Origin: Massilia soli
GTDB lineage: Bacteria > Pseudomonadota > Gammaproteobacteria > Burkholderiales > Burkholderiaceae_D
Assembly (NCBI RefSeq): GCF_016809835.1
Contig: NZ_JAFBIL020000009.1
Span: 1-64,000 of the forward strand
Direction: 5' to 3'
DNA length: 64,000 nt
Part shown: positions 1-63,558 of the stretch, piece after piece
Position numbering within the stretch: the first letter of the stretch is position 1
Layout of the letters: every line of letters starts with the position of its first letter
Made by a program: the position numbers and the translations under genes
Notes under the pieces: generated by a model
What the model was told of the DNA's origin: nothing
Databases searched by the model: none
The model's input: the letters and a program-made list of their open reading frames with translations, nothing else

Positions 1-63
1 GCCGGCTTCGGCTTGCTTGAGAATGGCGATGATCTGGCTGTCGGTAAAACGGGAGGTCTTCAT
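1..63 (-). mobile_element. IS3-family transposase OrfA, N-terminal fragment (cut by window edge)
   Basis: The 21 visible codons read MKTSRFTDSQIIAILKQAEA plus Gly. This is the typical first helix of the helix-turn-helix OrfA of IS3-family elements (IS407/IS51-like groups). OrfA is a DNA-binding regulator and is normally frameshifted into OrfB to make the transposase. The rest lies outside the window, so I cannot say whether the element is intact. The end of the element should lie between about 100 and 131, directly against the 3' end of cobQ. Confidence 0.75.
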
Positions 64-82
64 GTAGAGCTTTCTGTGTCTT

Positions 83-100
83 AAGTAGAAAATTCTACTT
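83..100. repeat. Inverted repeat upstream of IS orfA
   Basis: AAGTAGAA (83-90) and TTCTACTT (93-100) form a perfect 8-bp inverted repeat with a 2-bp spacer, 20 bp upstream of the orfA start codon. It could be an operator or promoter-proximal structure of the insertion sequence. I could not identify the terminal inverted repeat itself. Confidence 0.5.
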
Positions 101-131
101 CTGAACGCGCTCTTTATGTGGGGGAATTACC

Positions 132-4941: not shown

Positions 4942-4951
4942 AGTCGGGCCC

Positions 4952-5554: not shown

Positions 5555-5589
5555 AAGCTCTCTTGTTGAAGTAGGGCCGCCGCGCGGCG

Positions 5590-6615: not shown

Positions 6616-6618
6616 GCG

Positions 6619-8533: not shown

Positions 8534-8640
8534 AGATTGAACAGAACTGCGACAAGCAAGGATGAGATTCGACTGACTGGACGAAGGAAATGCAAAGCCC
8601 GGCCGCGCCGCAAACATCCCCGTTCGCGCACTTCCACCTG

Positions 8641-8812
8641 CTTTGGCCGGTATCCGGGCTTGCAAGTGTACCGGTTCACCTTCCCATGCTGATAGCACAG
8701 TGGTTGTTCGAACCGGCGTGTCGCGCGAGGCGACGCTTGCTTACCGTTGCGGGGGCAGCACACGTTAGCTGTAAAGGCTTCGTGTTTCCCGTTTAACTGC
8801 ACACATGGACAT
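8641..8812 (-). promoter_or_regulatory. Cobalamin riboswitch upstream of btuB
   Basis: Read on the minus strand, the leader contains the conserved core elements in order: AAACGGGAA (8794-8786), GCTGCCCCCGCAACGGTAA (8759-8741), and a B12-box segment AAGCCCGGATACCGGCC (8661-8645). Together these identify a cobalamin riboswitch. The outer limits are approximate. It sits between cobC and btuB and should control btuB and the seven genes behind it. Confidence 0.93.
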
Positions 8813-8817
8813 GTGTG
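8800..8817. repeat. Perfect inverted repeat at the 5' side of the riboswitch
   Basis: CACACATG (8800-8807) and CATGTGTG (8810-8817) form a perfect 8-bp inverted repeat with a 2-bp spacer, just upstream of the conserved AAACGGGAA element. It may be a peripheral helix of the aptamer or a separate protein site. Confidence 0.5.
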
Positions 8818-8838
8818 CGGGCACCAAAACGGTGTCGA

Positions 8839-9384
8839 TTATACACAGTCAAGTGTCAACACGCCGCCGTAGCCGATTGCATGGGCATGCGCGGCTGCGT
8901 GCCGGGCCATCTCGGACGGGGCGAGGCCGAGCTGGCGCGCGGCGAACAATCGGATGGTGCCGGCATGGCAGACCAGCACGCACTCGGTGTGCGGCGCCTG
9001 TAGCAGGTCATCGTAAAACGCGTGTACCCGCAGCGCCATCGCCGCCACGCTGTCGGCGCCGCCGCCAGGACGGTAATGCGCGACGTTTGCGGCCCAGGCG
9101 TCGACTTCCGCGCGGGCGATCTCGCTCCATGGGCGCAGTTCCCAGGCGCCGAAATCCAGCTCGGCGAGGCGCGGGTCAATGCGCACCTCCGGTGCCAGCG
9201 CGCGCGCCAGGCGCAGGCAGCGCTTGAGCGGACTGGAATACACAGGTACGGCAGCTGGCAACGCTGCAAGCGCAAACGGCAGCATATGGTCATGCACCTG
9301 ATCGCTCACCGCCAGGTCTGCGCTGCCGTAACAGACACCGGGCGCGACGTCCGGCGCGAAGTGGCGGATCAGGTGTACCCGCAT
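8839..9384 (-). CDS. cobC: Alpha-ribazole phosphatase (histidine phosphatase family)
   Basis: It removes phosphate from alpha-ribazole-5'-phosphate (or adenosylcobalamin-5'-phosphate) late in nucleotide-loop assembly. The 181-aa protein has the phosphohistidine motif LIRHFAP at its start, YSSPLKRCLRLA, the ELDFGAWE motif and a C-terminal VCHAGTIR. The ATG at 9384 is used because MRVHLIRH is the normal family start and lies one base after the cobS stop. The 3' end is close to the btuB riboswitch. Confidence 0.88.
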   Translation of the reverse strand: MRVHLIRHFAPDVAPGVCYGSADLAVSDQVHDHMLPFALAALPAAVPVYSSPLKRCLRLARALAPEVRIDPRLAELDFGAWELRPWSEIARAEVDAWAANVAHYRPGGGADSVAAMALRVHAFYDDLLQAPHTECVLVCHAGTIRLFAARQLGLAPSEMARHAAAHAHAIGYGGVLTLDCV

Positions 9385-38209: not shown

Positions 38210-39070
38210 CTAAGTGACTTTGACGCTGCGCGCCGACCAGGCGCTGGCCGCCGACGCCAGCACGATCAGGGCGATCGCGGTCCACTGGGTCGATGTCAGC
38301 ACCTCGCCCAGGATCGCGAAGCCGGCGAGCGCGCTGATCGCCGGCGCCGCGCTGCTGAGCATGCCGAACAGCCCTTGCGACAAGCCGCGCAGGGCGATGA
38401 CTTCCAGCGAATACGGTATCGCGCTCGACAGCACGGCGATGGCGATGCCGGTCAGGATGATCGGCGGCGCGAGCAGCGCGGCGCCCGAGTAGGCAATCCC
38501 GAGCGGCACGGTAAACAGCGACGCGACCAGCATGCCGAGCGCAACGCCCTGGCCGCCGCGCAAGGTCGACGCGCGCTTGCCGAACACAATGTACAGCGCC
38601 CAGCACAGCGCCGCGCCGAAGGCGTAGGCGACGCCTGCCGGGTCGAGCTGCCCCGGCCCGGCGTCCAACGGCAGCAGCAGGTACAGGCCGAACACCGCCA
38701 GCGCGCAGGCGGCGAAGTCGCGCGGACGGCGCGACGACAACAGCGCCACGGCGAGCGGCCCGGTCACTTCGATGGCCACCGCGACGCCGATCGGAATGCG
38801 GTCGAAGGCGCGGTAGATCAGCAAGTTCATCAGCCCGAGCACGGTACCGTAGATCAGCAGGTTGCCCGCATCGCGCCGGGTGATGGGCGAGCGCCACGGG
38901 CGGAAGATTGCCAGCAGCAGCAAGGCGGAAAACCCGACCCGGTAGGCGGTGATGCCTTCGACGCCGATCACCGGGAACAGGTTCTTGGCGACGGCGGCGC
39001 CCAGGTTGACCGAAATATGCCCGCCAAGCAGCGCAAGGGAAGGCCGCAGGATGCCGTCGCGGTCGCTCAT
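38210..39070 (-). CDS. EamA/DMT family transporter (RhtA-like exporter)
   Basis: This 286-aa protein has about ten hydrophobic helices in two EamA repeats. It has the sequence flavour of RhtA/YdcZ-type threonine/homoserine exporters (HISVNLGAAVAKNLFPVIGVEGITAYRVGFSALLLL, VAIEVTGPLAVALLSSRRP). It should export a small metabolite. Its ATG directly abuts the TAA of the diguanylate cyclase gene, and it is the last gene of the six-gene cluster. Confidence 0.87.
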   Translation of the reverse strand: MSDRDGILRPSLALLGGHISVNLGAAVAKNLFPVIGVEGITAYRVGFSALLLLAIFRPWRSPITRRDAGNLLIYGTVLGLMNLLIYRAFDRIPIGVAVAIEVTGPLAVALLSSRRPRDFAACALAVFGLYLLLPLDAGPGQLDPAGVAYAFGAALCWALYIVFGKRASTLRGGQGVALGMLVASLFTVPLGIAYSGAALLAPPIILTGIAIAVLSSAIPYSLEVIALRGLSQGLFGMLSSAAPAISALAGFAILGEVLTSTQWTAIALIVLASAASAWSARSVKVT

Positions 39071-39982
39071 TTATCCCTGCCGCCAGACGATCCGGTTGCG
39101 CCCCGTTTGCTTGGCGCGGTACAGGTGTTCGTCGGCCGCCTCGAACATCGCCGACGCCGACTCGGCGCCATGATCGACCAGGGTCGCGCCGCCCACGCTG
39201 ACCGTCAGCATCGGCGCCACGGTCGAGGTGGCATGCTCGATCATCAGCTGGGCGATCTCGTCGCAAATGCCGCATACCACCTGCTGCGCCTGGGCGGCGT
39301 CGGTATCGGGCATCAGCAGCACCAGTTCCTCCCCGCCGTAGCGTGCCGCCAGGTCGGCCGGGCGGCGCATGCCGTTGCTGGCCGAGCGCGCCACCGCCCG
39401 CAAGGCGCGGTCGCCGGCCGGATGGCCGTAGTGGTCGTTGTACAGTTTGAAGCCGTCGATATCGAGCAGCGCCAGCGACAGCGGACGCTTGCTGCGCGAG
39501 GCGCGCAGCCACTCTGCTTCGTACACTTCGTCGAAGCGGCGGCGGTTGGCCAGCTCGGTCAGGCCGTCCACGTGCGCCAGCCTCTCGAGCATGCGGCGCT
39601 GGCGCACCACCTGCAGGTGCAGCGCCACGCGCGCCATCACCACGGTGGCGTTGAACGGCTTGGCGATGTAGTCGGCCACGCCCATGCGCAGGCCGTTGGC
39701 CTCGTCTTCCGGGCGGTCCAGCCCCGAGATGAAGATCACCGCGATGTGCGCCGTCTGCGGGTCCTGGCGCAGGCGGCGCAGGGTCTCGTAGCCATCCATG
39801 TCGGGCATCATCACGTCGAGCAGGATCAGGTCGGGCGCGTGGCGCGCCGCGCGCTCGAGCGTCTGCGCGCCGTTCCTGGCCAGGATGACGGTGTACTCGG
39901 GCTTGAGCAGTTCGCCCAGCACCATGCGGTTGATCGCGTCATCGTCGGCCACCAGGACCTTCTGCATTTCTCCGAAAGTCAT
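39071..39982 (-). CDS. Response regulator with GGDEF output (PleD-like diguanylate cyclase)
   Basis: This 303-aa protein has an N-terminal receiver with the acidic cluster VADDD and phosphoacceptor Asp near residue 55 (LILLDVMMPDMDG). A GGDEF domain follows, with active-site GGEEL near residue 214 and an inhibitory RxxD site (RPAD) five residues before it. It is therefore a phosphorylation-activated, product-inhibited c-di-GMP synthase. Its start overlaps the hybrid kinase stop by 4 bp, so that kinase is the likely phosphodonor. Confidence 0.93.
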   Translation of the reverse strand: MTFGEMQKVLVADDDAINRMVLGELLKPEYTVILARNGAQTLERAARHAPDLILLDVMMPDMDGYETLRRLRQDPQTAHIAVIFISGLDRPEDEANGLRMGVADYIAKPFNATVVMARVALHLQVVRQRRMLERLAHVDGLTELANRRRFDEVYEAEWLRASRSKRPLSLALLDIDGFKLYNDHYGHPAGDRALRAVARSASNGMRRPADLAARYGGEELVLLMPDTDAAQAQQVVCGICDEIAQLMIEHATSTVAPMLTVSVGGATLVDHGAESASAMFEAADEHLYRAKQTGRNRIVWRQG

Positions 39983-42900
39983 GCGCTCTCTTTCATGTCC
40001 ATGTCCAGCGCCTGCGCGAGCTGTCCCAGCGGGGCGAGGGCGGCGTGGTATTCGATGTCGTCGACCGCGCGCTGTACCGCCGCCAGCATGCCGGTATGGC
40101 GCGAACCGGCCAGCAGCGTCTGCAGTTCGAGCAGCGCGTCTTCGGCACGCGCGTCCTCGGCCCTGAGCAGCGTTTCGAGCCGGTGCGCCAGCCTGCGGCC
40201 GTCGGCGGCGGCGTAGCGGCTGGCGGCGACCGGCGCCTCGACCTTGGCCAGACCTGCCAGGATGGTGTCGAGCGTTTCCATCAACTCGGTGACCAGCGCG
40301 CCGATGCGCTCCAGGCGCCCGGCGCGCAGTTCCAGTTCGACGCTGTTGGCCAGCGCCGACAAGTTCGACGCGCCCAGGTAGAAGGCGCTCGACTTCAGGT
40401 TGTGCGTGAGGTTTTCGACGGTGGCGTAATGGCCGCCGGCCAGCGCTTCGCGCAGGATGCGCGGCGCGTCGCGGTATTCCAGCAGGAAGCCGCGGATCCG
40501 CTTGTGCAGGCGGTCCGGCTGGCGGTCGACGTTGGCCAGCGCCTGTTGCCAGTCGATGCCGCGGATCGGCGGCAGCGGGGCGGCGTCTTCATGCGATCCC
40601 TGGCGCGGCGCCCGCGCCGGCAGCGCGCGTCCGGCCAGGCGCGCAGGATCGATCCACTTGAGCAGCACGCGGAACAGCAGCGCCGGATCGATCGGCTTGG
40701 TGATATGGTCGTTCATGCCTGCGGCCAGGCTCTTTTCGCGGTCGCCCGCCATGGCGTGCGCCGTCATCGCAATGATCGGCACCCGCTGCAGGCGCTGGAT
40801 GGCGCGGATCCGCCGCGCCGCGCTAAGGCCGTCCATCTCCTGCATCTGGATGTCCATCAGCACCAGGTCGTAATCGGCATCCTGCATCATCTGCACCGCT
40901 TCGGCGCCGTGCACCGCCACGTCCACCTGGATGCGCGCCGCGGCCATGAAGTCCAGCGCCACTTCGCGGTTGTTGGCATTGTCTTCCACCAGCAGGATGC
41001 GGGCCCCATCGAGGCGCGACAGGTCGGGCAGGCTCGCGCCGCCGGCGCCTGCATGGCTTCCGAGGTCCGGGAGACCGCCTCCCTGGGCGGCCAGTTCGGG
41101 ACGCAGCACCTGCAGCAGGCTGTGATACAGCAGCGCCGGGCCCACCGGCTTGGTCAGGAAACCATGCAGCGGCACCTCGCCCTGGTTCTGCATCACCGCC
41201 TCGCGGGTCGATGCGCTGACCATCAGGATGGCCGGCGGCGCCGCGAAGCGCTGGTCGGAGTGGATCCGGCGGATCGTTTCGACGCCGTCCCAGCCGGGCA
41301 TCATGTAGTCCATCAGGACCACTTCATACGGCTCGCCCGCTTCAACCGCGCGCGCCAGCATCGCCAGCGATTGTTCGCCCGAACTCGCGGCATGCGCGCT
41401 GACGCCGAGCGAGGCCAGCATTTCGACCAGCGCGTCGCGCGCGGTGGCGCTGTCGTCGACCACCATCACGCGGGCCTGGTGCAGCGCGGCGGCGGCCAGC
41501 GTCACCGCGGTGGCGCCAGGATCGCCGACGCCGACCTGCACGGTGAAGGCGAAGCGGCTGCCGGCGCCCGGCGCGCTGGTCACGTCGATCGCGCCGCCCA
41601 GCAGTTCGACCAGCTGCTTCGAAATGCTCAGGCCAAGCCCGGTGCCGCCATAGCGGCGGGTAATCGAGCTGTCGGCCTGGCTGAACGACTGGAACAGCTG
41701 CGCCAGCTGTTCCTCGCTCATGCCGATGCCGGTGTCCTGGACCGAGAACTGCAGCGTGACCTTGTCTTCGCTGCGCTCGACCATGTCGACCGCGACCACG
41801 ATCTCGCCTTGCTCGGTGAATTTGACGGCGTTGTTGGTCAGGTTGATCAGCACCTGGCTGATGCGCAGCGGGTCGCCCACCAGCCGCGTCGGCACGCCGC
41901 GCTGGACGCGGAACACCAGTTCGACCGGCTTGGCGCCGGTTTTGAGGGAGGTCAGGCTGGACAAGTGCTCGAGCATGTCGTCGAGGTCGAACGCCACCGC
42001 TTCCAGGCTGAGCTTTCCCGCTTCGATCTTGGAGAAGTCGAGGATGTCGTTCAGGATGCCCAGCAGGTGTTCGCCGGACCCGAGGATCTTGGTCAGGTAG
42101 TTGCGCAGCTTGGGCGAGGCGTCGCCCATCAGCGACAGGCGGCTCATGCCGATGATCGCGTTCAGCGGCGTGCGGATCTCATGGCTCATGCTGGCCAGGA
42201 AGTCCGACTTCATGCGGGTGGCCGCTTCGGCGCGCAGCATGGCGTCCTGCATCTGGCGGGTGCGCAGGCCAAGGATGCGCATGAAGACCAGCATGTCGAA
42301 CAGATTGCCGAACTGGAGGGCGTGCATGGTCCAGAAATTGGCCGGCAGCGCGCCGTTGATCATCTGGCTGCAGATGACCGACGATGCGAACGCCACCGCC
42401 CAGCCGATGAGGAAATAGATGCCGACCGAGTCGCCGCGGCGGGCGCGCTTGAACGCGCCGGGAAGGCCGAGCAGCATCGGCATGACGCCCAGCGTGCTGA
42501 CGATCGCCACCAGGCCATCGACGCCGAGCAGGCCGGACGCATAGGCGACGGCGCTGATGACGCACAGTAGCGCGCCGGTTTTCATCAGGCGGCTGAAGAT
42601 GCGGTCCTGGCCCGGCCGCGCCAGCGCCTGTTCGACGAACAGGTAGGCGCCGCAGGACGCCATCAGCGCGAACAGGCCGCCCGCGTGCAGGTTCATCCAT
42701 TCATTGTCGAACCAGATGTACTGGCTTCCCAGCCCGAAGAAGCCGACCGAGAACATGGTGGTGCCGCCGATCAGCAGCGCATATTTGCCGAACAGCGGTT
42801 CGCGCAGGCTGATCCACTGCGCAAGGCTGTACAGCAGCAGGCAGATGCTCAGGCCAATCAGCATCCCCTGCAGCATCTGTTCGGCGAGGGCGTCGGAGTG

Positions 42901-43428
42901 GAACGGACCCGGCTTGGACAGGCGGATCGGCAGGATCATCGCGCCGGCGTTCTCGACACGCAGCAAGATCAGCTGCTGCTGTCCCGGCTTGAGCGGCAGC
43001 AGCGCGGCGGGCGCGCGGCCGCCGCGGGCGTTCTCCTGCCTCGGTTGCAGGTTGCCGAGCACCGCATGGCGGTGCAGTTGCCCGTCGGTGGCGACAAACA
43101 CGTCGACCCGGTTGATCACCGCGAAGTCGATATCGAGGATCCAGTCGGGGCCGTTTTGCGGCGCCAGTGCGACCGGGATCCTGATCCAGACGGTCCCCTG
43201 GTTGACGCCCAATGTCTGGTAGGCCGATGCCGGTACGGCGAACTGGGCGGCGGCGGCCAGTGCGTCCTCGGGACCCAGCTTGCCGCCCGGGTCGGCCAGC
43301 ACCGTGACCACTGGCCAGGCGTCGATGCGGCCCAGGCGATCTTCCAGCACCAGCGGTCCGGTCGCGGCCGGGGCAAGTGCCGGCAGCAGTGCCAGCAACA
43401 GGATGGCGAGGCGCAGTAGCATCAGCAT
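39979..43428 (-). CDS. 7TMR-DISM hybrid sensor histidine kinase with two receivers and an Hpt domain
   Basis: This 1149-aa protein has a signal peptide and a periplasmic 7TMR-DISMED2-type beta domain (about 30-180). Seven membrane helices (about 185-390) are followed by HisKA with the phospho-His near 415 (MSHEIRTPLN) and HATPase (GGTGLGLSISK). Two receivers have intact Asp near 706 (LMDYMMPGWDG) and 858 (LMDIQMQEMDG), and a C-terminal Hpt has His near 1008 (HNLKSSAFYLG). DISMED2 domains are predicted to bind carbohydrates or other small ligands. It overlaps its neighbours on both sides (7 bp and 4 bp). Confidence 0.93.
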   Translation of the reverse strand: MLMLLRLAILLLALLPALAPAATGPLVLEDRLGRIDAWPVVTVLADPGGKLGPEDALAAAAQFAVPASAYQTLGVNQGTVWIRIPVALAPQNGPDWILDIDFAVINRVDVFVATDGQLHRHAVLGNLQPRQENARGGRAPAALLPLKPGQQQLILLRVENAGAMILPIRLSKPGPFHSDALAEQMLQGMLIGLSICLLLYSLAQWISLREPLFGKYALLIGGTTMFSVGFFGLGSQYIWFDNEWMNLHAGGLFALMASCGAYLFVEQALARPGQDRIFSRLMKTGALLCVISAVAYASGLLGVDGLVAIVSTLGVMPMLLGLPGAFKRARRGDSVGIYFLIGWAVAFASSVICSQMINGALPANFWTMHALQFGNLFDMLVFMRILGLRTRQMQDAMLRAEAATRMKSDFLASMSHEIRTPLNAIIGMSRLSLMGDASPKLRNYLTKILGSGEHLLGILNDILDFSKIEAGKLSLEAVAFDLDDMLEHLSSLTSLKTGAKPVELVFRVQRGVPTRLVGDPLRISQVLINLTNNAVKFTEQGEIVVAVDMVERSEDKVTLQFSVQDTGIGMSEEQLAQLFQSFSQADSSITRRYGGTGLGLSISKQLVELLGGAIDVTSAPGAGSRFAFTVQVGVGDPGATAVTLAAAALHQARVMVVDDSATARDALVEMLASLGVSAHAASSGEQSLAMLARAVEAGEPYEVVLMDYMMPGWDGVETIRRIHSDQRFAAPPAILMVSASTREAVMQNQGEVPLHGFLTKPVGPALLYHSLLQVLRPELAAQGGGLPDLGSHAGAGGASLPDLSRLDGARILLVEDNANNREVALDFMAAARIQVDVAVHGAEAVQMMQDADYDLVLMDIQMQEMDGLSAARRIRAIQRLQRVPIIAMTAHAMAGDREKSLAAGMNDHITKPIDPALLFRVLLKWIDPARLAGRALPARAPRQGSHEDAAPLPPIRGIDWQQALANVDRQPDRLHKRIRGFLLEYRDAPRILREALAGGHYATVENLTHNLKSSAFYLGASNLSALANSVELELRAGRLERIGALVTELMETLDTILAGLAKVEAPVAASRYAAADGRRLAHRLETLLRAEDARAEDALLELQTLLAGSRHTGMLAAVQRAVDDIEYHAALAPLGQLAQALDMDMKESA

Positions 43429-44774
43429 TGAATCGGTCCGCGTGAGGATTGTTGTTTGTGGCGGCCGGTCAGGCGCCGTTCAAGCGCGTTCATCCAGCCA
43501 GGCGCCTTCGGATCGTCTTGCCAGGAAGTGGTCACCTGGCCGACCTGGTTCAGCAGCGCTTCAGGAAGCTTGAGCGGGCGGGTCTGGTCCATCAGCACCT
43601 TGGCGGCAAAGCGGTAGCCGACGATACGCGTCAACAGGCGCGCGATCGAGAACTGCGGCAGGACCAGGCGCACCGCGCCATCGATCAAGCGCACAGCGCC
43701 CATCGACACGGCGAACAGCGCGCGCGAGAACAGCGAGACGCGCGCGTCGAGCGCCAGCGTGACGGTGGCGTCGGCACCGCACAGGTAGCGCGTCAGCAGC
43801 ACGGGGAAGGGCTTCAGGATGGCCAGCGGGATCTCGTTTTGCATCGTCTGCATCAGCGCCGCGCCGAGGCCCGGGCGCGGGTCGGGCAGGTAGCTTGCGC
43901 GGCGTCCGCGCGCCTGCATGGCGCCAAACATGGCCTCGGCCTGGGCCATCGTGTCGGGCATCAGGGCACGCTCGATGCCGATCAGGTGCCCGAGGACGTT
44001 CCAGGTGTGCAGGTAGGCTTCTTCGTCGGCGGGCGGCAGGCCGATGCCAAGCTGGCGCAGGCCGCGCAGGAACACGTAGCCGAATGTGAGCAGGGTGTAG
44101 GCCAGTTCTTCCTGGCTGCAGGGCAGGCCGTCGCGGCTGACATCCCAGCCGTTGGCGAACAGCGCATGGTGCAATCCTTCGCCCTGGCGCGGCTGCGGCG
44201 CGACGAGCGCGCCATTGCGGGCCGCCGTGGCAGGGTCGCCGTGCAGCATCAGGTGGCGGATGGTGGCGTGGATCAGGCGCACCTTCAGCGCCTGCGCGAC
44301 CCCGCCGCCGGCGCCAAGCAGGCCGCCGTGCATCATCACCGGGAAGATCATCGCGGCAGTGGAGCGGATCCGGTAGTCGGCGTGCTGTTCCAGCTGGCCG
44401 GCCGCGTGCAGCACACCGGCCAGTTCAGGGATCACGTAGCACTCGGGCAGGCTGGCGCAAAACAGCAGCGTGCACGACGTCATGCTCATCTCCATGAACA
44501 GCGTTTCGGCACGTGCGATGCGCGCGCCGTCGGCCCATTCGGGTAGCTGGCGCGCACTGCGCACGTAGTCTTCCAGCGCGGCGGCAAGCGGCGCGGGCAC
44601 GTCGGTGTCGGGCTTCCAGCCGGCCAGCCCGCCGTTGGTTTGCCATTGTGCGAGCTGGCGGTTGACGATGGCCAGCCGGTCCCACTGCGACAGCGGCGCC
44701 TCCAGGCCGCTGCCGACAATGCGGGCGATGGCGTTGTCGGCGTGCGGATCGGCGCGCAGGCTGGCGGCGATCAT
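43422..44774 (-). CDS. MpaB/Lcp-type oxygenase (DUF2236)
   Basis: This 450-aa protein matches the DUF2236 family, which contains latex-clearing protein Lcp and MpaB, heme b oxygenases that cleave isoprenoid double bonds. Arg135, Thr139 and His169 (in RIRST and KVRLIHATIRHLML) have the same spacing, 4 and 30 residues, as Arg164, Thr168 and heme-ligand His198 of Lcp (numbers recalled). There is no signal peptide. The ATG at 44774 overlaps the DUF422 gene by 4 bp; the longer open frame is a shadow of that gene. The substrate is inferred only. Confidence 0.85.
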   Translation of the reverse strand: MIAASLRADPHADNAIARIVGSGLEAPLSQWDRLAIVNRQLAQWQTNGGLAGWKPDTDVPAPLAAALEDYVRSARQLPEWADGARIARAETLFMEMSMTSCTLLFCASLPECYVIPELAGVLHAAGQLEQHADYRIRSTAAMIFPVMMHGGLLGAGGGVAQALKVRLIHATIRHLMLHGDPATAARNGALVAPQPRQGEGLHHALFANGWDVSRDGLPCSQEELAYTLLTFGYVFLRGLRQLGIGLPPADEEAYLHTWNVLGHLIGIERALMPDTMAQAEAMFGAMQARGRRASYLPDPRPGLGAALMQTMQNEIPLAILKPFPVLLTRYLCGADATVTLALDARVSLFSRALFAVSMGAVRLIDGAVRLVLPQFSIARLLTRIVGYRFAAKVLMDQTRPLKLPEALLNQVGQVTTSWQDDPKAPGWMNALERRLTGRHKQQSSRGPIQC

Positions 44775-45580
44775 GCGGCTGCCTTCTGGTGCTGCCAGCG
44801 CGCGAAACCGCAGATGGCCGTCAGCAGCGGAATGCCCATCGCAAACAGTGCGATGGTGCGTGTCTCCACCGGGAAGCCCTCTACCGCCTGGAACAGCATG
44901 CTGCCGCCGTAGATCGCCAGCGGCACCATGGCGTGGCGCTTCGACACCGGCAAGGCCGGCGTCAGCGCGCGGCCGCGCAAGGTCAGGCGGAAGCCGAACA
45001 CGATGACGAACGACACGAACGCCCAGCCGGCGAAGCCTTGCACGGTCTCGCCAAACCACCAGCCATCGGTCTTGGCCATGATCCATGCCTTGAGGGTGTA
45101 GACCATGTACGGATCGGCGCCGAGGTCGTAGGCGGTGACGATCATTGCCGCCAGCAGCGACATCACGGCCGCCTGGGGCAGGGCGAATGCGCCGTCGTGC
45201 GGCGCCTGCCAGACCATCAGGTTCGATATCACGTAGGCGACGTAGCACAGCGCGAACCACATCAGCGGGATGATGGCCGGGACATCGCCCAGGCGCGGGC
45301 CCAGTACCTCGGTGTAGGTGTAGCTGCCGAAGAACCAGCCATAGGACGATCCAAGCTGTTCGGCGACCCAGCCGCAGGCCACGCCGATCACGACGAAGTG
45401 CAGCGCCGGGCGCGCGCCAAGCAGGTGGATGGCGCTGGCCCAGCAGCAGGCGAACATCAGCACCGAACTGACAATCAGGAGCTGGGTAGTCTCACCCTGG
45501 CCGCGCGCGAGCAGTGCGGCCAGGAAGGCCAGCAGGAGGCCCCCGGTGATGCGCGGCAGCTGTGAAGTAAGTGACGTCAT
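44771..45580 (-). CDS. Carotenoid biosynthesis-type membrane protein (DUF422, CruF-like)
   Basis: This 269-aa polytopic protein belongs to the COG2324/DUF422 family, whose known members include carotenoid 1,2-hydratase CruF and bisanhydrobacterioruberin hydratase. Conserved segments seen are GVACGWVAEQLGSSYGWFFGSYTYTEVLGPRLGDVPAIIPLMWF, AYDLGADPYMVYTLKAW and WWFGETVQGFAGWAFVSF. No other carotenoid pathway genes are in the window. It lies between a TonB receptor (16 bp) and the oxygenase (4-bp overlap). Confidence 0.83.
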   Translation of the reverse strand: MTSLTSQLPRITGGLLLAFLAALLARGQGETTQLLIVSSVLMFACCWASAIHLLGARPALHFVVIGVACGWVAEQLGSSYGWFFGSYTYTEVLGPRLGDVPAIIPLMWFALCYVAYVISNLMVWQAPHDGAFALPQAAVMSLLAAMIVTAYDLGADPYMVYTLKAWIMAKTDGWWFGETVQGFAGWAFVSFVIVFGFRLTLRGRALTPALPVSKRHAMVPLAIYGGSMLFQAVEGFPVETRTIALFAMGIPLLTAICGFARWQHQKAAA

Positions 45581-45596
45581 CGAAAGGACCGTTGAA

Positions 45597-47858
45597 TCAG
45601 AAGCGGTAATCGAGCCGCACATCGACCGTGCGCGGGTCGCTAGGCACCAGCATCCCGAAGCTGTCGATGGCAATCGGCGCGACCTTGTCGCCGATGTTCC
45701 TGACCACCGCGTGCACGCTCCAGTTGGATGCGGCCGGACTGAAGCCCACGCTGGCGTCGGCGGTGGTCCGGGCCGGGATCGGGTACTGCAGCAGCTGGCT
45801 CGGCACGCCGATCGTGTAGCTGCCGCTGGCGCGGGCGCTGACGCCTGCCTTCAGCTGGCCGCCGGCGACCGCGAAGCGCTGTTCGTAGCCGAGTGAAAGT
45901 GTCCTGCTCGGAGCGCGGTCGAGCTTGTAGCCGGCCCATGAATTGACGCCGTCAGGCGTGTACGCCACATAGTGCGCATCGAGCAGCGCGAGCGCATAGT
46001 TGAACGTGGCGGAGCTGGTGGCCTTGACGACGCCCTCAAGCTCAAGTCCCTTGACGCTGGCCTCGCCCGCGTTGTCGGTCACATAGCGCGGCGCGCCACG
46101 CACGATGGTCACGCCCGACAGCTGCAGGTTGGTGTAGTCGTAGGCGAACGCGGTCACGTTCAGGGTGGCGCGGTTGCGCCAGAAACGGGTCTTGAGGCCG
46201 GCTTCGATTGAACGCAGTTCTTCCGGCTGGTACACCAGCGTACTGGCTGGAACCGCCAGCGCCGCCGGGCAGGTGATGCCGAGCGCGCTGGTGCCTGCCA
46301 GGCAGCCGTCGTTGAAGCCGCCAGCCTTGTACCCGGTCGATACGGCGCCGTACACCATGGTGGCGGGCGCCAGGTCGTATTCGGCGCCGAGCCGCCAGGT
46401 GGTCCTTGTGGTGTGGAGCGAGGCCGCGTTGAGCATGCGCAAATCGGTGGCCGGGTTGAATTCCGCCTGTTGCTGGAAGTTGGTGGAGCCGACGCGCGAC
46501 TTGTTGTCCTCGGTGCGGCGCACACCCGCCGTCGCGCGCAAGCGCGGCATGATGCTGTAGGTCGCCTGGCCGAACAGCGCGCGGCTGCGCGCGACGGTCG
46601 GACCGTTCGGGAATACATAGTAGGGCGGCAAGCCTACCAGCTCGAGGTCGCGGAAGCTGTAGACGACCTCCGACTCTTCCCGGAAGTAGTACAGGCCAGC
46701 CTGCGCGCTGAGCGGTCCGGCGCCGTTGGTGGCGACGCGCAGTTCGTGAGAATCCTGCGCGTAGTCGCCGCTGAAGTTCTGGCGCACGCCCAGTGCGAAC
46801 GTGGGCGCCACGCGGTAATAGAAATTGGCCAGCGTGTCGTGCTGGTAGTCGCGGTGCGAGCCAAGGTACGACAAGGTCAGCGCGCCAAGGTCCCAGGTCA
46901 GCTCCGCGCCGGTGCCGGAGCTGGTCTTGTCGCTGAAGCCCTGCGCCGGCACGGTGTTGGGCGGCACGAACGCGTTGGTCAGGCGCTTGTCGGTGTCCGA
47001 GACGTACCAGACTGGCTTGCCGGTCGAAACGCCGGTGTAGAAATTGGTATCGGGAACGATGCTGTCGTTGCTGTCGCGGACCTCGCTGCGGTCGTGGCGC
47101 AGCAGCAGCGAGCCGGATTTGCCGAGCGCCAGGCGGGCCGATATGCGCGCCGAACGGTCGTCGCGGTCCAGCCCAAGCGTGTGCGGCGTACGCTGGGCAT
47201 TGATCAGGAAGCTGTCGCGCTGGTTGTAGGCCAGCGCCGCCCGCACCGACAGGACATCGCTGAGCGGTACATTGAGCATGGCGCTGGCCTTGCGGCTGCC
47301 ATAGTTGCCCGCGGCCACGCTGGCGGCGCCTTCCAGCAACGGCGACGGCGTGTTGGCGATGACGTTGACGACGCCGGCGGTCGCGTTGCGTCCATACAGC
47401 GTGCCTTGCGGGCCGCGCAGCACTTCCACCCGCGCGATATCGAAGAAGCTCATCACCTGGGCCTGCGGACGGGCGATGTAGATCCCGTCGAGCATGAAGG
47501 CGGCCGATGGGTCGCCTTTTTCGGTCGTGTCGGCGTTCGAGACGCCGCGAATGGTGATCTTGAGGCCGTCGGCGGCGCCATTCAGGTGCACATTGGGCAG
47601 GCGCGCGGCCAGGTCGGATGGCCGTTCGATGCCCGCGTCCCGCAACTGGCTGCCAGACAGGACGCTCATCGCCACCGGCGTGCGCGCTTCGGTCGACACG
47701 ATGCGTTGCGCGGTAACGACAACTTCCTGGATTTCGCCGTCGTTGCCGGCCTGATTCGGTTGCTGAACCGGTACCTGGGCATGCGCCGCGGTCCAGACGA
47801 TGCTGGACATGGACATGGCCAGTAGTGAAGGATTCAAACGAACCCGGCGAATAGACAT
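45597..47858 (-). CDS. TonB-dependent receptor
   Basis: This 753-aa outer-membrane receptor has a signal peptide (MSIRRVRLNPSLLAMSMSSIVWTAAHA) and a TonB-box region EVVVTAQR. The plug domain shows SDLAARLPNVHLNGAADGLKITIRGV, FDIARVEVLRGPQGTLYGRNATAGVVNV. The barrel ends in VRLDYRF, with a final aromatic residue. The plug resembles receptors of the sphingomonad/caulobacter type that take up hydrophobic or plant-derived compounds. It heads the six-gene cluster; 190 bp separate it from the kinase gene upstream. Confidence 0.9.
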   Translation of the reverse strand: MSIRRVRLNPSLLAMSMSSIVWTAAHAQVPVQQPNQAGNDGEIQEVVVTAQRIVSTEARTPVAMSVLSGSQLRDAGIERPSDLAARLPNVHLNGAADGLKITIRGVSNADTTEKGDPSAAFMLDGIYIARPQAQVMSFFDIARVEVLRGPQGTLYGRNATAGVVNVIANTPSPLLEGAASVAAGNYGSRKASAMLNVPLSDVLSVRAALAYNQRDSFLINAQRTPHTLGLDRDDRSARISARLALGKSGSLLLRHDRSEVRDSNDSIVPDTNFYTGVSTGKPVWYVSDTDKRLTNAFVPPNTVPAQGFSDKTSSGTGAELTWDLGALTLSYLGSHRDYQHDTLANFYYRVAPTFALGVRQNFSGDYAQDSHELRVATNGAGPLSAQAGLYYFREESEVVYSFRDLELVGLPPYYVFPNGPTVARSRALFGQATYSIMPRLRATAGVRRTEDNKSRVGSTNFQQQAEFNPATDLRMLNAASLHTTRTTWRLGAEYDLAPATMVYGAVSTGYKAGGFNDGCLAGTSALGITCPAALAVPASTLVYQPEELRSIEAGLKTRFWRNRATLNVTAFAYDYTNLQLSGVTIVRGAPRYVTDNAGEASVKGLELEGVVKATSSATFNYALALLDAHYVAYTPDGVNSWAGYKLDRAPSRTLSLGYEQRFAVAGGQLKAGVSARASGSYTIGVPSQLLQYPIPARTTADASVGFSPAASNWSVHAVVRNIGDKVAPIAIDSFGMLVPSDPRTVDVRLDYRF

Positions 47859-48049
47859 TGAAGCGCTCCCCAGCCTTGTCAGGGCGCCGGAACCGCCGGT
47901 CGCCCGTCCCACCGTGCATGTTGTTAATGACTATATGCGGTGGGAATCAAAGTGCAGAGTTTATCAGTTAGTGTCGCAAGGAAACAGCCCCCGGGCGCCA
48001 GTTCATGAAAAAAGAGCAAGCGCACGTCACAATTGATATTGTCGTTTTG

Positions 48050-52142: not shown

Positions 52143-53507
52143 CTACTGCGGCAAGGCGCGCGCGTTGCGCTGACGTAGCCAGTATCCGCTGCCCAGCAGC
52201 GCGAGCCACGCCGGAATCAGATACACCGACAGGCGCAGCCCGGGCGTAATGAACATGACGACCAGGATCCCCGCGAGGAACACCAGGCACAGATAGCTCG
52301 AGAGCGGCCACATCGGGCTTGGGAAGGCGGTGGCCGCGCCCAGTTTCTTTTTGTGCGCGCGGAAACGCAGGTGAATCCAGGTGATCATCGCCCAGTTGAT
52401 GACCAGCGCCGAGACGACCAGCCCCATCAGCATGCCAAAGGCTTCGCCCGGCATGAAGTAGTTCAGGCTCACGCACAGGCCGGTCGCGGCCGCCGACACG
52501 CCGAGCGCCGCCAGCGGCACGCCGCGGCGGTTCACTTTCAGCAGGGCACGCGGTGCATTGCCTTGCAGCGCCAGGCCGTACAGCATGCGGCTGTTGGCAT
52601 AGACGCAGCTGTTGTACACCGACAGCGCGGCGGTCAGCACCACGATGTTGAGCACATTGGCCACCAGGCTGCTGTCGAGCGCATGGAAGATCAGTACGAA
52701 CGGGCTGCCGCCGCTGACCACTTTTTGCCACGGGTACAGCGACAGCAGCACGCCAAGCGCGCCGATGTAGAAGATCAGGATGCGGTAGATGGCCTGGTTG
52801 GTGGCTTTGGGAATGGTTTCGGATGGATTCTCGGCTTCCGCCGCGGTGATGCCGACCAGCTCCAGGCCGCCGAACGAGAACATGATGACCGCCATCGCCA
52901 TCACCAGTCCGCCAACGCCGTTCGGGAAGAAGCCGCCGTGCTGCCACAGGTTGGCGACCCCGGCTTCAGGGCCGGCGCCGCCCGAGGCCAGCAGGTAGAT
53001 GCCGAAGCCGATCATCGCGACGATGGCCACCACCTTGATCACGGCGAACCAGAATTCCATCTCGCCGAAGGCCTTGACCGTGGCCAGGCTGATGCTGTTG
53101 ATGATGACGAAGAACGCCAGCGCCGACATCCAGGTCGGTATATCCGGATACCAGTACTGCACGTAAATGCCGACGGCGCTCAGTTCGGCCATGCTCACCA
53201 GGATGTACAGCACCCAGTAATTCCAGCCCGAGGCGAAGCCGGCCAGGTGGCCGCAATACTTGTCGGCGAAATAGCTGAAGGAACCGGCGACCGGCTCGTC
53301 GACGACCATTTCGGCCAGCTGGCGCATGATCAGGAAGGCGATCACGCCGGCAATCGCGTAGCCCAGCAGCACCGAGGGACCGGCCAGCTGGATGGTTTGC
53401 GCGATACCGAGGAACAGTCCGGTTCCGATGGCGCCGCCCAGCGCGATCAGCTGAATGTGACGGCTCTTGAGGCCGCGCGTGAGTTGCTGCTGTCCTTGGA
53501 CTGCCAT
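52143..53507 (-). CDS. Amino acid permease (AAT family, APC superfamily)
   Basis: This 454-aa protein with about twelve membrane helices begins LTRGLKSRHIQLIALGGAIGTGLFLG, the AAT-family opening, with GPSVLLGYAIAGVIAFLIMRQLAEM next. FSFGGLELVGITAAEAENPSETIPKA, the ligand/coupling loop, is intact. It imports an amino acid with protons. The sequence is closest in style to ProY/CycA-type permeases; the substrate cannot be fixed. Confidence 0.92.
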   Translation of the reverse strand: MAVQGQQQLTRGLKSRHIQLIALGGAIGTGLFLGIAQTIQLAGPSVLLGYAIAGVIAFLIMRQLAEMVVDEPVAGSFSYFADKYCGHLAGFASGWNYWVLYILVSMAELSAVGIYVQYWYPDIPTWMSALAFFVIINSISLATVKAFGEMEFWFAVIKVVAIVAMIGFGIYLLASGGAGPEAGVANLWQHGGFFPNGVGGLVMAMAVIMFSFGGLELVGITAAEAENPSETIPKATNQAIYRILIFYIGALGVLLSLYPWQKVVSGGSPFVLIFHALDSSLVANVLNIVVLTAALSVYNSCVYANSRMLYGLALQGNAPRALLKVNRRGVPLAALGVSAAATGLCVSLNYFMPGEAFGMLMGLVVSALVINWAMITWIHLRFRAHKKKLGAATAFPSPMWPLSSYLCLVFLAGILVVMFITPGLRLSVYLIPAWLALLGSGYWLRQRNARALPQ

Positions 53508-55117: not shown

Positions 55118-56421
55118 TCAGTCTATAAACAGCGTCGCCGGGCACTCGAGGTAGGCGCGCAGCGCCTGCACGAACTGGGCTGCGTACATGCCGTCGATCA
55201 CGCGGTGGTCGAACGAGCATGACAAATTCATCATCTTGCGCACGACGATCGCGCCGTCGCGCACCACTGGCCGCTCGACCATGCGGTTGACGCCGACGAT
55301 GGCCACTTCCGGATGGTTGATAACGGGCGTGGTGACGATGCCGCCCAAGGCGCCCAGGCTGGTGATGGTGATGGTCGATCCCGACAGCTCGTCGCGCGCT
55401 GCCTTGCTGGTGCGCGCCGCCTCTGCCAGCCGCGCCACTTCGGCGGCGCTGGCCCACAGGTCGCGCGACTCCGCATGGCGCACCACCGGCACCATCAGGC
55501 CGGCGTCGGTCTGGGTGGCGATGCCGATGTGGACAGGCTTGTGGTACGTGACCGAGCCGACATCGTCGTCAAAGCGCGCATTGACGTGCGGGAAGCGCGC
55601 CGCACCCAGCACGACGGCGCGCATCAGCAGCGGCAACAGGGTCAGCCGGCCGCGCTCGGCGCCATGGCGGGCGTTGAGCTGCACGCGCAGGGATTCCAGG
55701 TCCGTCACGTCGACTTCCTCGACGTAGGTAAAGTGCGGGATGCGGCGTTTTGCATCCTGCATCTTTTCGGCGATCTTGCGGCGCAGGCCCAGTAGCGGCA
55801 CCGCCTGCACGCCTTCCAGCGGCGCGTAGCGGTTGCCGGCCGGCGCGGGGCCGGGCTTGCTGCCGGCGAGGATCGCATCCAGGTCGGCATGGGTGATGTG
55901 GCGTGCCGGCCCGGTCGCCCGCACGCTGTGCAGGTCGATGCCAAGGCTGCGCGCGCGCTGGCGCACCGATGGCGAGGCAAGCGGCTTCTCCTGGGACGCG
56001 GCCGGTGCCGGGGGCGGGGCGGCGACGGTCACTTGCGCGGCCGCTGCTGGCGCCGGTGCCGGTGCCGGTGCTTGGGCTGGTGCTTGGGCTGGTGCTGGCG
56101 CTGGCGCTGGCGCGGCCACCGCGGCAGGCGGCGCGGGGGCGCGGGCTGGCGCCGGTGCGCCGGCGACGGTATTGCCGTCGCCCTCGACCTCCAACCTGAT
56201 CAGCTCGGCACCGACAGCCAGCGCCTGGCCGATCGCGCCGCCCAGCGACACCACCGTGCCGTGCACCGGCGAGGGGATTTCAACGGTGGCCTTGTCGGTC
56301 ATCACGTCGGCCAGCACCTGGTCCTCGGTGACGGCATCGCCCGGCTGCACGCGCCATTCGACCACTTCGACTTCGGCAATGCCTTCGCCCAGGTCCGGCA
56401 TCTTAATTACATGAATTCCCA

Positions 56422-56422
<1 letters not shown>
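55118..56422 (-). CDS. bkdB: Branched-chain 2-oxoacid dehydrogenase E2 (lipoamide acyltransferase)
   Basis: This 434-aa E2 core protein has an N-terminal lipoyl domain with the lipoylated Lys in MTDKATVEIPSP (residue about 43-44). A long Ala/Pro/Gln linker (about 85-145) with repeated PAPA units follows, then an E1/E3-binding domain (SPSVRQRARSLGIDLHSVRATGP) and a catalytic domain ending in FDHRVIDGMYAAQF (HRxxDG). It transfers the acyl group from E1 to CoA. Its ATG overlaps the E1-beta stop by one base (TAATG). Confidence 0.94.
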
Positions 56423-57459
<1,037 letters not shown>

Positions 57460-57460
57460 G

Positions 57461-58756
<1,296 letters not shown>

Positions 58757-61575: not shown

Positions 61576-63558
61576 CTACCTCGCGCCCGCCGCCGCTCCA
61601 ATATGCGCAGCGCCGCCCGTGGCGGCGGCGTCGCGGGTGCGCAGCCGCACCTGCAGCTCGCGCAGGTAATACGCCAGCAGGCGCGTGTCGCCCGACAAGC
61701 CGCGCTGTGCCGGCGACGCGGCATCGGCGTGGCGCAGTTCGATCAGCAGCTCCGGGCCGGCCGGGCCGGGCGGGATGGCCAGCTCGGCGACGGCCAGTGA
61801 ATGCATGCCGGCCGGTTTTCCATTGATGCGCACCTCCGATGCGCGCACCCGGTCAAAATAGTGTCCGGTAAAGGATAAGCCGGTCGCCTCCTGGCCGGCT
61901 GGAAGGCGAATCCTGATGAGCGAGCGTGCGGCGCTGGTCCAGGTCCCCGCAGCTTCGGCGCCATGCCAGCCGCTGTCGAGCACTTGGCGGGCTGCGCCGG
62001 CGCCGGCAAAGCTCAGCCGCACTGGCGTGTCGGCGCGGGCTGCCGCCGAGCAGGCAAGCGGTCCGTTCAGGTACTCCCAGCCGCGGTCGACTGCAACAAC
62101 CGCGTGCGTGCTGACCTGCCGTCCTGCGGGACACACGCCGCCACTGTCGCTGCTGTTGGTCCAGTGGCGCAGCAGTTTGACCGGCACGCCGTTGGCATAT
62201 AACACCTGGGTGGTATCGCGGGTGATGCTGGCCTCGCTGTGCTTGCCGCGCTCGATGAAGATCTCGGGGTCGGGATTGAGGTGGCCGGGAAATGCCGCGA
62301 GCGCCCACTCGGCCAGCGGCGCGTGATGGAGGTAGTTGGTGGTGCGCCACATTAAGCCGCTACCGAGCACGGCCATGCATTGCGCTACGATTACGGCGCC
62401 TACGACCTGCATGCGCGGCCTGGCTGGCAAGGCAGGCAGGACCGACACGAGATAGGCCGCCAGCGGCATCGCGGCCCAGTACGCATATCGCAACATGACC
62501 GACGTGCCGCTGTTCCAGTTCATCGCAGCCAGCGCCGGTGCTGCAACGATGCAGCACGCCAACGTGGCGAACAGGGCGTTGGCTGCAACGACCCGCTTGT
62601 TCAGCGCCAACCTGATTGCCGCGATCGCCGCCAGTCCGGCGAACAGCCCCGGCATGCCCGCCAACATGCCCTGGTCAAGGTCGAAGACGAAGGACAAGGC
62701 GCGGCGCGCGGTGATCAGGGACGGATCGGTAAAGTGGGGCGCGATCAGGCTGGGTACGCCGAACACGCTGTAATAGAACAGGTAGGGGCCAAGCGCGGCG
62801 GCGATGCCCAGGGTGCCAAGGGTGATCTGGGCCGCCGCGCTGCGATGTACGATCGGCAGGGTGACGAGTGCCGGCACGCGCAACGCGGCCAGGCGATGCG
62901 CAGCGAACAAGGGAATGATCAATGCCAGCGACGGATTCTGGGTCGCGCCTATGCCAGCCAGGCATATCGCCATCGACGTATCGCGTCGCAGCACGCACAT
63001 GGTGGCGGAGAATGCGCAGCAGGCGGTGAGCACTTCCGGGCCGGTCCATCGGAGATAGTATGCGGTGCCAAGCGACAGGAACACCAGCGCCGCGGTCCGG
63101 CTCGCTTTTGGCAATGACTGATGCAGGTGCACAATGGTCGCGCCCAGCAGCGTCAGGTTAAGCAGCGGAAAACACAAGGCGGGGTTGATTCCCAGCCATA
63201 CCGCGACCGCGTAATATGGCGCCGCCATCAGCGAATACAGCCAGAAGTGAATGGCGTATATCTCGCCCGGTTCGGTACGTGCGAATCCGAAGTGCGGCAG
63301 TCCCGCCGGCGTGCGGCGCAGTTCGTCGACAGCGTTGGCGAGCAGGGTGTGGGCAGCCGGATCGATGTGCCCGTCGAGTAGCCTTGACAGATGCGCGAAG
63401 TCGGCCGGGGTGAGCAATGCGCTGCCGTGGGCGGTGAACGCATGCGCCATCATCAGGTATTCAATGCCATCGCCATCGATGTGGGATCGCAGGATTCCAG
63501 CGATGGTGGCAAGTAGCGCGAACAGCGCCCAATACCCGGTTCGGGCGTCTGTCGGCAT
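61576..63558 (-). CDS. Large polytopic membrane protein, glycosyltransferase-C-like
   Basis: This 660-aa protein has about ten to twelve membrane helices in the first 430 residues and a soluble C-terminal part of about 230 residues (TQVLYANGVPVKLLRHWTNSSDSGGVCP onwards, beta-rich). An early acidic motif (HIDGDGIEYLMMA) after the first helix resembles the catalytic loop position of GT-C/ArnT-type glycosyltransferases. The match is weak. The substrate and role are unknown; an envelope function is likely. Confidence 0.7.
   Translation of the reverse strand: MPTDARTGYWALFALLATIAGILRSHIDGDGIEYLMMAHAFTAHGSALLTPADFAHLSRLLDGHIDPAAHTLLANAVDELRRTPAGLPHFGFARTEPGEIYAIHFWLYSLMAAPYYAVAVWLGINPALCFPLLNLTLLGATIVHLHQSLPKASRTAALVFLSLGTAYYLRWTGPEVLTACCAFSATMCVLRRDTSMAICLAGIGATQNPSLALIIPLFAAHRLAALRVPALVTLPIVHRSAAAQITLGTLGIAAALGPYLFYYSVFGVPSLIAPHFTDPSLITARRALSFVFDLDQGMLAGMPGLFAGLAAIAAIRLALNKRVVAANALFATLACCIVAAPALAAMNWNSGTSVMLRYAYWAAMPLAAYLVSVLPALPARPRMQVVGAVIVAQCMAVLGSGLMWRTTNYLHHAPLAEWALAAFPGHLNPDPEIFIERGKHSEASITRDTTQVLYANGVPVKLLRHWTNSSDSGGVCPAGRQVSTHAVVAVDRGWEYLNGPLACSAAARADTPVRLSFAGAGAARQVLDSGWHGAEAAGTWTSAARSLIRIRLPAGQEATGLSFTGHYFDRVRASEVRINGKPAGMHSLAVAELAIPPGPAGPELLIELRHADAASPAQRGLSGDTRLLAYYLRELQVRLRTRDAAATGGAAHIGAAAGAR

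Follow-up and report, generated by a model that had tools for sequence, protein, structure and literature searches.

A conserved gene module joins a CruF-like protein and an Lcp-like oxygenase to a 7TMR-DISM sensor with predicted cyclic di-GMP output: a candidate isoprenoid-sensing system

Six overlapping or closely spaced genes in Massilia soli

We analyzed a gene cluster in a 64,000-nucleotide stretch of DNA from Massilia soli (contig NZ_JAFBIL020000009.1, positions 1 to 64,000; genome size 4.99 Mb), hereafter the window. The cluster encodes, in gene order, a TonB-dependent outer-membrane receptor, a CruF-like membrane protein, an oxygenase related to latex clearing protein (Lcp) and MpaB, a 7TMR-DISM hybrid histidine kinase, a diguanylate cyclase and an EamA-type transporter (Table 1). 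Judging from the gene order, a natural gene fusion, active-site residues, a single sensor clade, co-occurrence across genomes and an exchange of output domains, all read from the sequences, the oxygenase, the CruF-like protein and the 7TMR-DISM/cyclic di-GMP (c-di-GMP) sensor very probably constitute a real, conserved functional module.

The original prediction, made from the letters of the window, described a six-gene minus-strand cluster at 38210-47858 with gaps of 16 bp or less. This was confirmed from the sequence: the junctions from the TonB gene to the EamA gene measure +16, -4, -7, -4 and 0 bp (negative values denote overlaps). The family assignments of all six genes exceed the Pfam cut-offs. 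No sigma-70-like site was detected in the presumed promoter region upstream of the TonB gene. A scan for terminator-like structures found no minus-strand site between the cluster genes and one site within the EamA gene, with no more sites in total than in shuffled sequences. As the scan thus performed no better than on shuffles, we can only infer co-transcription of the cluster genes, possibly with EamA included.

Table 1 Features of the cluster and its upstream region
Feature	Coordinates in the window	Strand	Basis
TonB-dependent outer-membrane receptor, 753 aa	45597..47858	-	PF00593 E=4.7e-36, PF07715 E=1.2e-17
CruF-like integral membrane protein, 269 aa	44771..45580	-	PF04240 E=2.8e-29
Lcp/MpaB-type oxygenase, 450 aa, predicted heme-b enzyme	43422..44774	-	PF09995 E=2.1e-11
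7TMR-DISM hybrid histidine kinase, 1149 aa	39979..43428	-	Pfam domains
REC-GGDEF diguanylate cyclase, 303 aa	39071..39982	-	PF00072, PF00990
EamA/RhtA-like transporter	38210..39070	-	PF00892
Intergenic region upstream of TonB gene, presumed promoter region	47859..48049	-	Between PAS-GAF hybrid kinase stop and TonB start
PAS-GAF hybrid kinase upstream of the cluster	50902-48050		

The oxygenase, the CruF-like protein and the sensor form the conserved core

A search of named records with the oxygenase returned 35 loci, 11 of which come from Massilia, Duganella or Telluria (L014-L020, L022-L024 and L044). Conservation of the gene order in relatives had been set beforehand as the test on which the cluster would stand or fall, and all 11 of these loci keep the order TonB receptor, CruF-like protein, oxygenase, 7TMR-DISM kinase, cyclase. 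The nearest named relative among the matches is Massilia agrisoli (oxygenase 75%, sensor 87%). Genes beyond this block vary between locus groups; therefore, the conserved block in the Massilia family starts at the TonB receptor and ends at the cyclase. Two neighbors were accordingly rejected as parts of the cluster. Apart from the window, L014 and L077, both from close relatives, are the only loci in which an EamA gene was matched next to the cluster (L005 and L008 do not extend far enough to decide), and this does not support the proposed role of EamA as the exporter of the system. Its nearest model is the threonine/homoserine exporter RhtA (NF007823), against which it scores 266 bits, below the cut-off of 354. 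The PAS-GAF hybrid kinase was matched (80%) beside the cluster in L014 only.

We then counted components over 53 distinct loci, from which the duplicates L004 (= L014) and L115 (= L042) had been removed. These counts were taken from tblastn tables, because the gene caller, having been trained on the window, overlooks genes in genomes of lower GC content. In 50 of the 53 loci, the start of a 7TMR-DISM sensor gene lies no more than 1 kb downstream of the oxygenase (49 by script, plus the window, whose gene overlap fell outside the script's rule). The CruF-like protein is present in 40 loci, a BBE oxidase in 20, the TonB receptor in 19 and a kinase-type sensor in the same 19. In Acidovorax and other Burkholderiales, one to three 7TMR-DISM proteins fused to GGDEF come after CruF-Lcp or after Lcp alone, TonB is missing, and a flavin adenine dinucleotide (FAD)/BBE-type oxidase often follows the fused proteins. 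By this comparison, the conserved core is the CruF-like membrane protein (PF04240), the predicted Lcp-like heme oxygenase (PF09995) and a 7TMR-DISM sensor putatively signaling to c-di-GMP, in support of the earlier view that these three belong together.

The oxygenase and the CruF-like protein are relatives of known isoprenoid enzymes

The oxygenase scores 44.8 bits against PF09995, above the curated cut-off of 23, and its sequence matches structures of LcpK30 from Streptomyces sp. K30 (5o1m, E=2.1e-16; 5o1l, E=4.9e-16). Residues R135, T139 and H169, invariant in 25 of 25 sequences, align with Arg164, Thr168 and His198, which the accessible part of the LcpK30 report names as active-site residues (PMC5522427). 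The position of Glu148 is occupied by Glu117 in the window's oxygenase and by Asp in most homologs. The distal Lys167 is replaced by Ser138; the same part of that report gives this lysine as conserved in 59% of Lcps only (PMC5522427). A hydropathy scan, run without a dedicated signal-peptide predictor, found no N-terminal hydrophobic or transmembrane segment in the window's oxygenase, and the enzyme is therefore predicted to be cytoplasmic, unlike the extracellular Lcps. Rubber degradation by the cluster appears unlikely, because this segment is lacking and because the conserved block holds no catabolic gene, aldehyde dehydrogenase included (the outer flanks were not searched for such genes).

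In the family, 11 of 145 genomes carry a strong member of this oxygenase subfamily, with one of the 12 matches being weak. The corresponding figures are 13 of 399 genomes for a sample of the order (six weak matches among 19) and 3 of 398 for a sample of the phylum (six weak among 9), the last three also being members of this order. Five loci of distant weak PF09995 relatives from the order and phylum sets were laid out (L123-L126 and L129), and none showed a 7TMR-DISM sensor among its called open reading frames.

The CruF-like protein, a multi-pass membrane protein, scores 103 bits against PF04240 (cut-off 25) and falls far below the NCBIfam cut-offs for CruF equivalogs (69.2 versus 400, 65.8 versus 154.7 and 46.3 versus 300 bits). 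In whole-genome searches, PF04240 was found as a single copy in 10 of the 11 family carriers of the oxygenase versus none of three chosen non-carriers. The CruF-like protein and the oxygenase are encoded in a single open frame in L011 (genome G085), in L012 (G119) and in L021, a locus of a metagenome-assembled genome, spanning 798, 777 and 747 codons, respectively, from stop to stop. This natural fusion supports a common pathway for the two proteins. In a structural model of the L021 fusion (mean predicted local distance difference test score, pLDDT, 75.8; predicted template modeling score 0.58), the Lcp fold was recognized (5o1l, E=6e-8), with an unreliable relative placement of the two domains.

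The cluster sensors form one clade that accompanies the oxygenase

The window's sensor consists of an N-terminal hydrophobic segment, a periplasmic DISMED2 domain (PF07696, E=7.7e-22), a seven-transmembrane (7TM) region (PF07695, E=4.9e-27), HisKA, HATPase, two REC domains and Hpt. It is the only PF07696 match in its genome. Eight carrier genomes were searched for PF07696, and in six of them it is confined to the cluster (one match each in G000, G106, G085, G188 and G289, two in G147); G410 and G366 have extra matches. In the family, all 11 strong oxygenase carriers have PF07696, versus 59 of 134 other genomes (Fisher p=2e-4), and in the order the figures are 13 of 13 versus 107 of 386 (Fisher p=1e-7); both tests are uncorrected for relatedness, and the two carrier sets share four carriers.

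A maximum-likelihood tree of 101 sensors grouped all 39 cluster sensors included, taken from 28 of the 53 loci, into one clade with a support of 100/100. One further sensor, from carrier G366, was the only one of 62 others to fall inside, and 61 other Burkholderiales sensors remained outside. The stem of the clade measures 1.98 changes per column and is among the long branches at whose meeting the tree program warns. Profile scores, which are independent of the branching order, were bimodal and divided 86 further loci into 10 with and 76 without a clade sensor. Oxygenase and sensor distances are correlated across the 28 loci (Mantel r=0.77), a correlation that shared ancestry alone could also produce.

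Three carriers have no linked sensor (G277, G439 and G544), and each encodes a clade sensor elsewhere in its genome (profile-score differences of +269, +264 and +217). A clade sensor is present in all 13 order-wide strong carriers, in 12 as judged by tree or profile score and in G018 by 53% identity of its linked sensor. Among the order non-carriers, at least one PF07696 match was examined in 88 of 107 genomes (hand count), and four of them hold a clade sensor (G079, G182, G334 and G424). The family non-carriers with a clade sensor are G079, G126 and G133, with weak partial matches and some second matches left out. These enzyme-free genomes retain different parts of the cluster: TonB receptor, sensor and cyclase in G126 and G133, sensor and cyclase in G079, and the sensor-GGDEF protein alone in G182, G334 and G424. 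In the loci L210 and L211, a TonB receptor lies beside the clade sensor, with neither CruF nor Lcp.

In a structural model of the window's sensor (mean pLDDT 79.4), a periplasmic beta-sandwich that resembles the RetS domain (2xbz, 3jyb; E about 5e-6) is joined to a helical membrane part. Two ideas on the 7TM part were tried and set aside. A retinal-type chromophore was dropped, as an alignment of 16 sensors (A4) has no invariant lysine. A lipid pocket like that of G-protein-coupled receptors was suggested by a Foldseek match to Wntless-Wnt3a (E=8e-5) with a root mean square deviation of 17 and a TM-score of 0.31; cannabinoid, lysophosphatidic acid and other receptors gave E >1e-3, and this suggestive result is not used as evidence.

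The number and layout of sensors vary. Six loci (L031, L036, L038, L039, L045 and L047) carry three tandem 7TMR-DISM-GGDEF copies after the oxygenase, and the extra copies branch separately inside the sensor clade (the tree includes three of these loci). In the CruF-less cluster L074 (G056; 1-7684, minus strand), two 7TMR-DISM hybrid kinases flank the cyclase gene on either side. A single 1102-aa open frame in L026 (13298-16606, plus strand) joins 7TMR-DISM-GGDEF to the FAD/BBE oxidase, which the gene caller separates in most other Acidovorax loci.

Lineages differ in output architecture and in the TonB receptor

Massilia-type clusters combine the hybrid kinase with a separate REC-GGDEF protein, which follows the kinase in all 11 Massilia, Duganella and Telluria loci, whereas elsewhere GGDEF is fused directly to the sensor. 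The window's putative cyclase has a GGEEL active-site motif with RxxD upstream (motif RRPADLAARYGGEEL). The GGDEF proteins inspected have GGEEL or GGEEF together with RxxD in the REC-GGDEF form and GGDEF in the fused form. The output machinery thus differs between lineages and its predicted target, c-di-GMP, is constant; since the output domains are cyclases, the c-di-GMP output that had been proposed is upheld. Elsewhere in the window (16961-19672, plus strand), a GGDEF-EAL protein with a weak Cache-domain match represents a further c-di-GMP enzyme.

The TonB receptor occurs in exactly those loci that have a kinase-type sensor. Uptake therefore lies outside the shared core and, with 19 of 53 loci, cannot be counted as part of the common system, as had been suggested. 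Cluster TonB receptors are 56-80% identical to that of the window; two other receptors, found among open reading frames of at least 500 aa in longer loci, matched it at 27% or less.

The isoprenoid gene content of the carriers points away from a general carotenoid substrate

HpnC, HpnD and HpnE of the window's genome all score above their NCBIfam cut-offs, and hence this genome has the squalene route. It holds no PF00494 gene beyond HpnC and HpnD, i.e. no dedicated phytoene synthase. Just two PF00494 genes were likewise found in 7 of the 11 family carriers and in 23 of 23 carriers searched outside the Massilia-type group (L031 left out; one G146 gene reads as two pieces), and the assignment of the pair to HpnC and HpnD rests on NCBIfam models and was made for the window's genome only. 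A squalene-hopene cyclase that could act as a sink gave no match in the window's genome, and 4 of 28 genomes searched pass the cut-off.

From this gene content, a cell-made C40 carotenoid does not appear to be the general substrate, and the carotenoid named in the original prediction is doubtful for the window, where HpnC and HpnD are the only PF00494 members. Squalene or a derivative would be the most economical endogenous substrate, although a weakly supported one, since squalene is made by the window's genome, which lacks a dedicated phytoene synthase. An association of squalene genes with the cluster was sought and proved uninformative, given the near-universal presence of PF00494 in the family (see below). 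Imported isoprenoids may also serve as substrates, above all in the TonB lineages. The earlier reading that the system imports and cleaves its substrate thus stands as one option, and a locally produced ligand would agree with the distribution no less well. In L076 (G018:C1:1008000-1020000), a third PF00494 gene lies beside genes that look carotenoid-related from their first residues (no family search), and some carriers may make carotenoids.

Other features of the window

A cobalamin riboswitch (RF00174, 84.8 bits; 8628-8843, minus strand) lies directly upstream of another TonB receptor gene (8487-6619), presumably for a BtuB-type vitamin B12 receptor. Genes for a 2-oxoacid dehydrogenase (E2 and E1-alpha by Pfam; 55118-58693, minus strand) are located near an amino-acid permease gene (52143-53507). 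At 61576-63558 (minus strand), a 660-aa protein is predicted that has no Pfam match at E 1e-5.

A model for isoprenoid handling and sensing

On balance, we favor the view that the cluster is an isoprenoid-handling and isoprenoid-sensing module, in which a lipophilic isoprenoid, formed or altered by the enzymes, is detected by the sensor. In the following scheme, the chemistry, the identity of the ligand, the choice between production and removal and the consequence for c-di-GMP are our proposal. The CruF-like protein and the Lcp-like heme oxygenase would share a single lipophilic isoprenoid as their target, on the cytoplasmic side of the inner membrane, the former hydrating a terminal isoprene unit and the latter cleaving an internal double bond to yield an aldehyde and a ketone. 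The modified molecule, or its substrate, would be the ligand of the neighboring 7TMR-DISM receptor and be read in its periplasmic or membrane part; that the sensor reads a substrate or product of the enzymes is, in our judgment, somewhat probable. In Massilia-type clusters, the signal would run through a phosphorelay (HisKA, REC, Hpt) to the REC-GGDEF cyclase and change c-di-GMP, and in other lineages the receptor would signal straight to its fused GGDEF domain with the same effect. In kinase-type lineages, the TonB receptor may additionally import the molecule from outside. The earlier functional interpretation is retained in part, namely for the module and its c-di-GMP output, and abandoned for the EamA exporter and for a shared uptake step.

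Several observations weigh against the isoprenoid module as proposed. The CruF-like protein was not found in 13 of the 53 loci (in one of these, L037, the contig ends 113 bp upstream) and is therefore not essential, and the 34 loci lacking a kinase-type sensor have no TonB receptor. Clade sensors occur without an oxygenase match at the cut-offs used in the six examined genomes listed above. The closest structural match of the sensor, the RetS periplasmic domain, does not point to an isoprenoid. According to the accessible parts of two reports, few 7TMR-DISM receptors are characterized, carbohydrate ligands are predicted for them and DISMED2 jelly-rolls are predicted carbohydrate binders (PMC8846402, PMC6107284). 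This prediction weighs against a lipophilic ligand in the sandwich, but says nothing against such a ligand in the 7TM part. A third PF00494 gene is present in four of the 11 family carriers (G018, G139, G106 and G056), so that carotenoids may occur there. Finally, with PF00494 found in 141 of 145 genomes of the family, its occurrence in carriers amounts to no association, and squalene is not singled out.

The one-way relation between enzymes and sensor, with 13 of 13 carriers holding a clade sensor and six genomes holding the sensor only, can be read by analogy with receptor 'solos': the enzymes would be useful only to a cell with the receptor, whereas the receptor would be useful alone. This fits a more specific version of the model, which we put forward tentatively and consider rather unlikely in full, in which the enzymes would convert an isoprenoid of the cell's own, perhaps squalene, to a diffusible apo-isoprenoid that serves as a signal between cells or species. 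The 7TM receptor would read this signal and alter c-di-GMP, TonB import would be added in some lineages, and 'listener' genomes would keep the receptor, with or without the importer, and lack the enzymes. Removal of a signal by the enzymes would fit the same rule. The cells might instead sense and detoxify their surroundings, with plant or soil isoprenoids imported via TonB and destroyed by the oxygenase and the CruF-like protein while c-di-GMP is altered, and with no message passing between cells. Such a role is conceivable but doubtful: the TonB receptor of 19 loci, the TonB-sensor-cyclase sets kept without enzymes in G126 and G133 and the dominance of Massilia, Duganella and Acidovorax records among the matches speak for it, whereas no TonB receptor was matched in direct-GGDEF loci, the conserved block, outer flanks not searched, offers no catabolic gene, and the presence of a clade sensor in every order-wide carrier is stricter than a detoxifying enzyme would predict.

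A sensor that detects something unrelated, such as a sugar, envelope stress or redox state, beside enzymes that are just co-regulated neighbors seems improbable to us. The carbohydrate prediction for DISMED2, the RetS-like structure and the sensors without oxygenase would suit it. Against it, the linkage of sensor and oxygenase persists despite differing output domains and flanking genes, and the outputs are cyclases without a DNA-binding domain, so there is no obvious control of the operon by the sensor. We regard it as very improbable that the cluster is a carotenoid tailoring operon, in which an apocarotenoid serving as pigment or protectant is the product of the CruF-like protein and the oxygenase, and the signaling genes merely tune the process. 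PF04240 is indeed a carotenoid-biosynthesis family and the third PF00494 gene of four family carriers agrees with this idea, but the CruF equivalog cut-offs are not reached, and all other carriers searched have just the PF00494 pair expected of HpnC and HpnD.

Relation to known systems

The component families are known, and we did not find their wiring described. The original prediction knew of no described system with this gene combination. A search of the open-access literature, with most subscription papers outside its scope, found no description: no paper paired 7TMR-DISM with DUF2236 or with carotenoid, Massilia with latex clearing protein, or any two of MpaB oxygenase, carotenoid biosynthesis protein and TonB-dependent receptor. 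Among the matches listed, work dealt with rubber or with c-di-GMP, never both, and none joined CruF with latex clearing protein. 7TMR-DISM receptors are widespread, and for one clade of them the cluster offers a built-in clue to the ligand, namely the product or substrate of two adjacent, sometimes fused, putative isoprenoid enzymes. If the isoprenoid module is correct, Lcp-type oxygenases would gain a role beyond rubber degradation, CruF relatives would gain one in genomes that lack a dedicated phytoene synthase, and there would be a path from an isoprenoid to c-di-GMP that experiments could test.

The cluster oxygenase shares with Lcp of Streptomyces sp. K30 the family, the Lcp fold, the proximal His, the Arg and Thr residues and an acidic residue at the Glu148 position. 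It differs from the extracellular Lcp in lacking an N-terminal hydrophobic segment, in having Ser138 at the Lys167 position and in adjoining a sensor and frequently also a CruF-like protein, with which it is fused in some loci. The CruF-like protein resembles the CruF carotenoid hydratases (gamma-carotene 1'-hydroxylase and bisanhydrobacterioruberin hydratase) in being a multi-pass PF04240 membrane protein, but its scores (69 against a cut-off of 400, 65.8 against 154.7) set it apart, as does the lack of PF00494 genes beyond HpnC and HpnD in the window's genome.

In the synthase-sensor operons RpfF/RpfCG, PhcBSR, CqsA/CqsS and LqsA/LqsS, an enzyme for a small molecule lies beside a membrane phosphorelay sensor, and receptor-only genomes exist. 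The cluster may be seen as analogous in both respects and differs in its unrelated enzymes, its expected isoprenoid ligand and its 7TMR-DISM receptor. With the 7TMR-DISM receptors RetS, LadS, NicD and RgsP, as described in the accessible part of PMC6107284, the cluster sensors share DISMED2 and/or 7TM sensor regions and an output through a kinase or GGDEF domain with links to biofilm or c-di-GMP. They differ from these in forming a separate long-stem clade among the sampled Burkholderiales 7TMR-DISMs, one that is genetically tied to the oxygenase.

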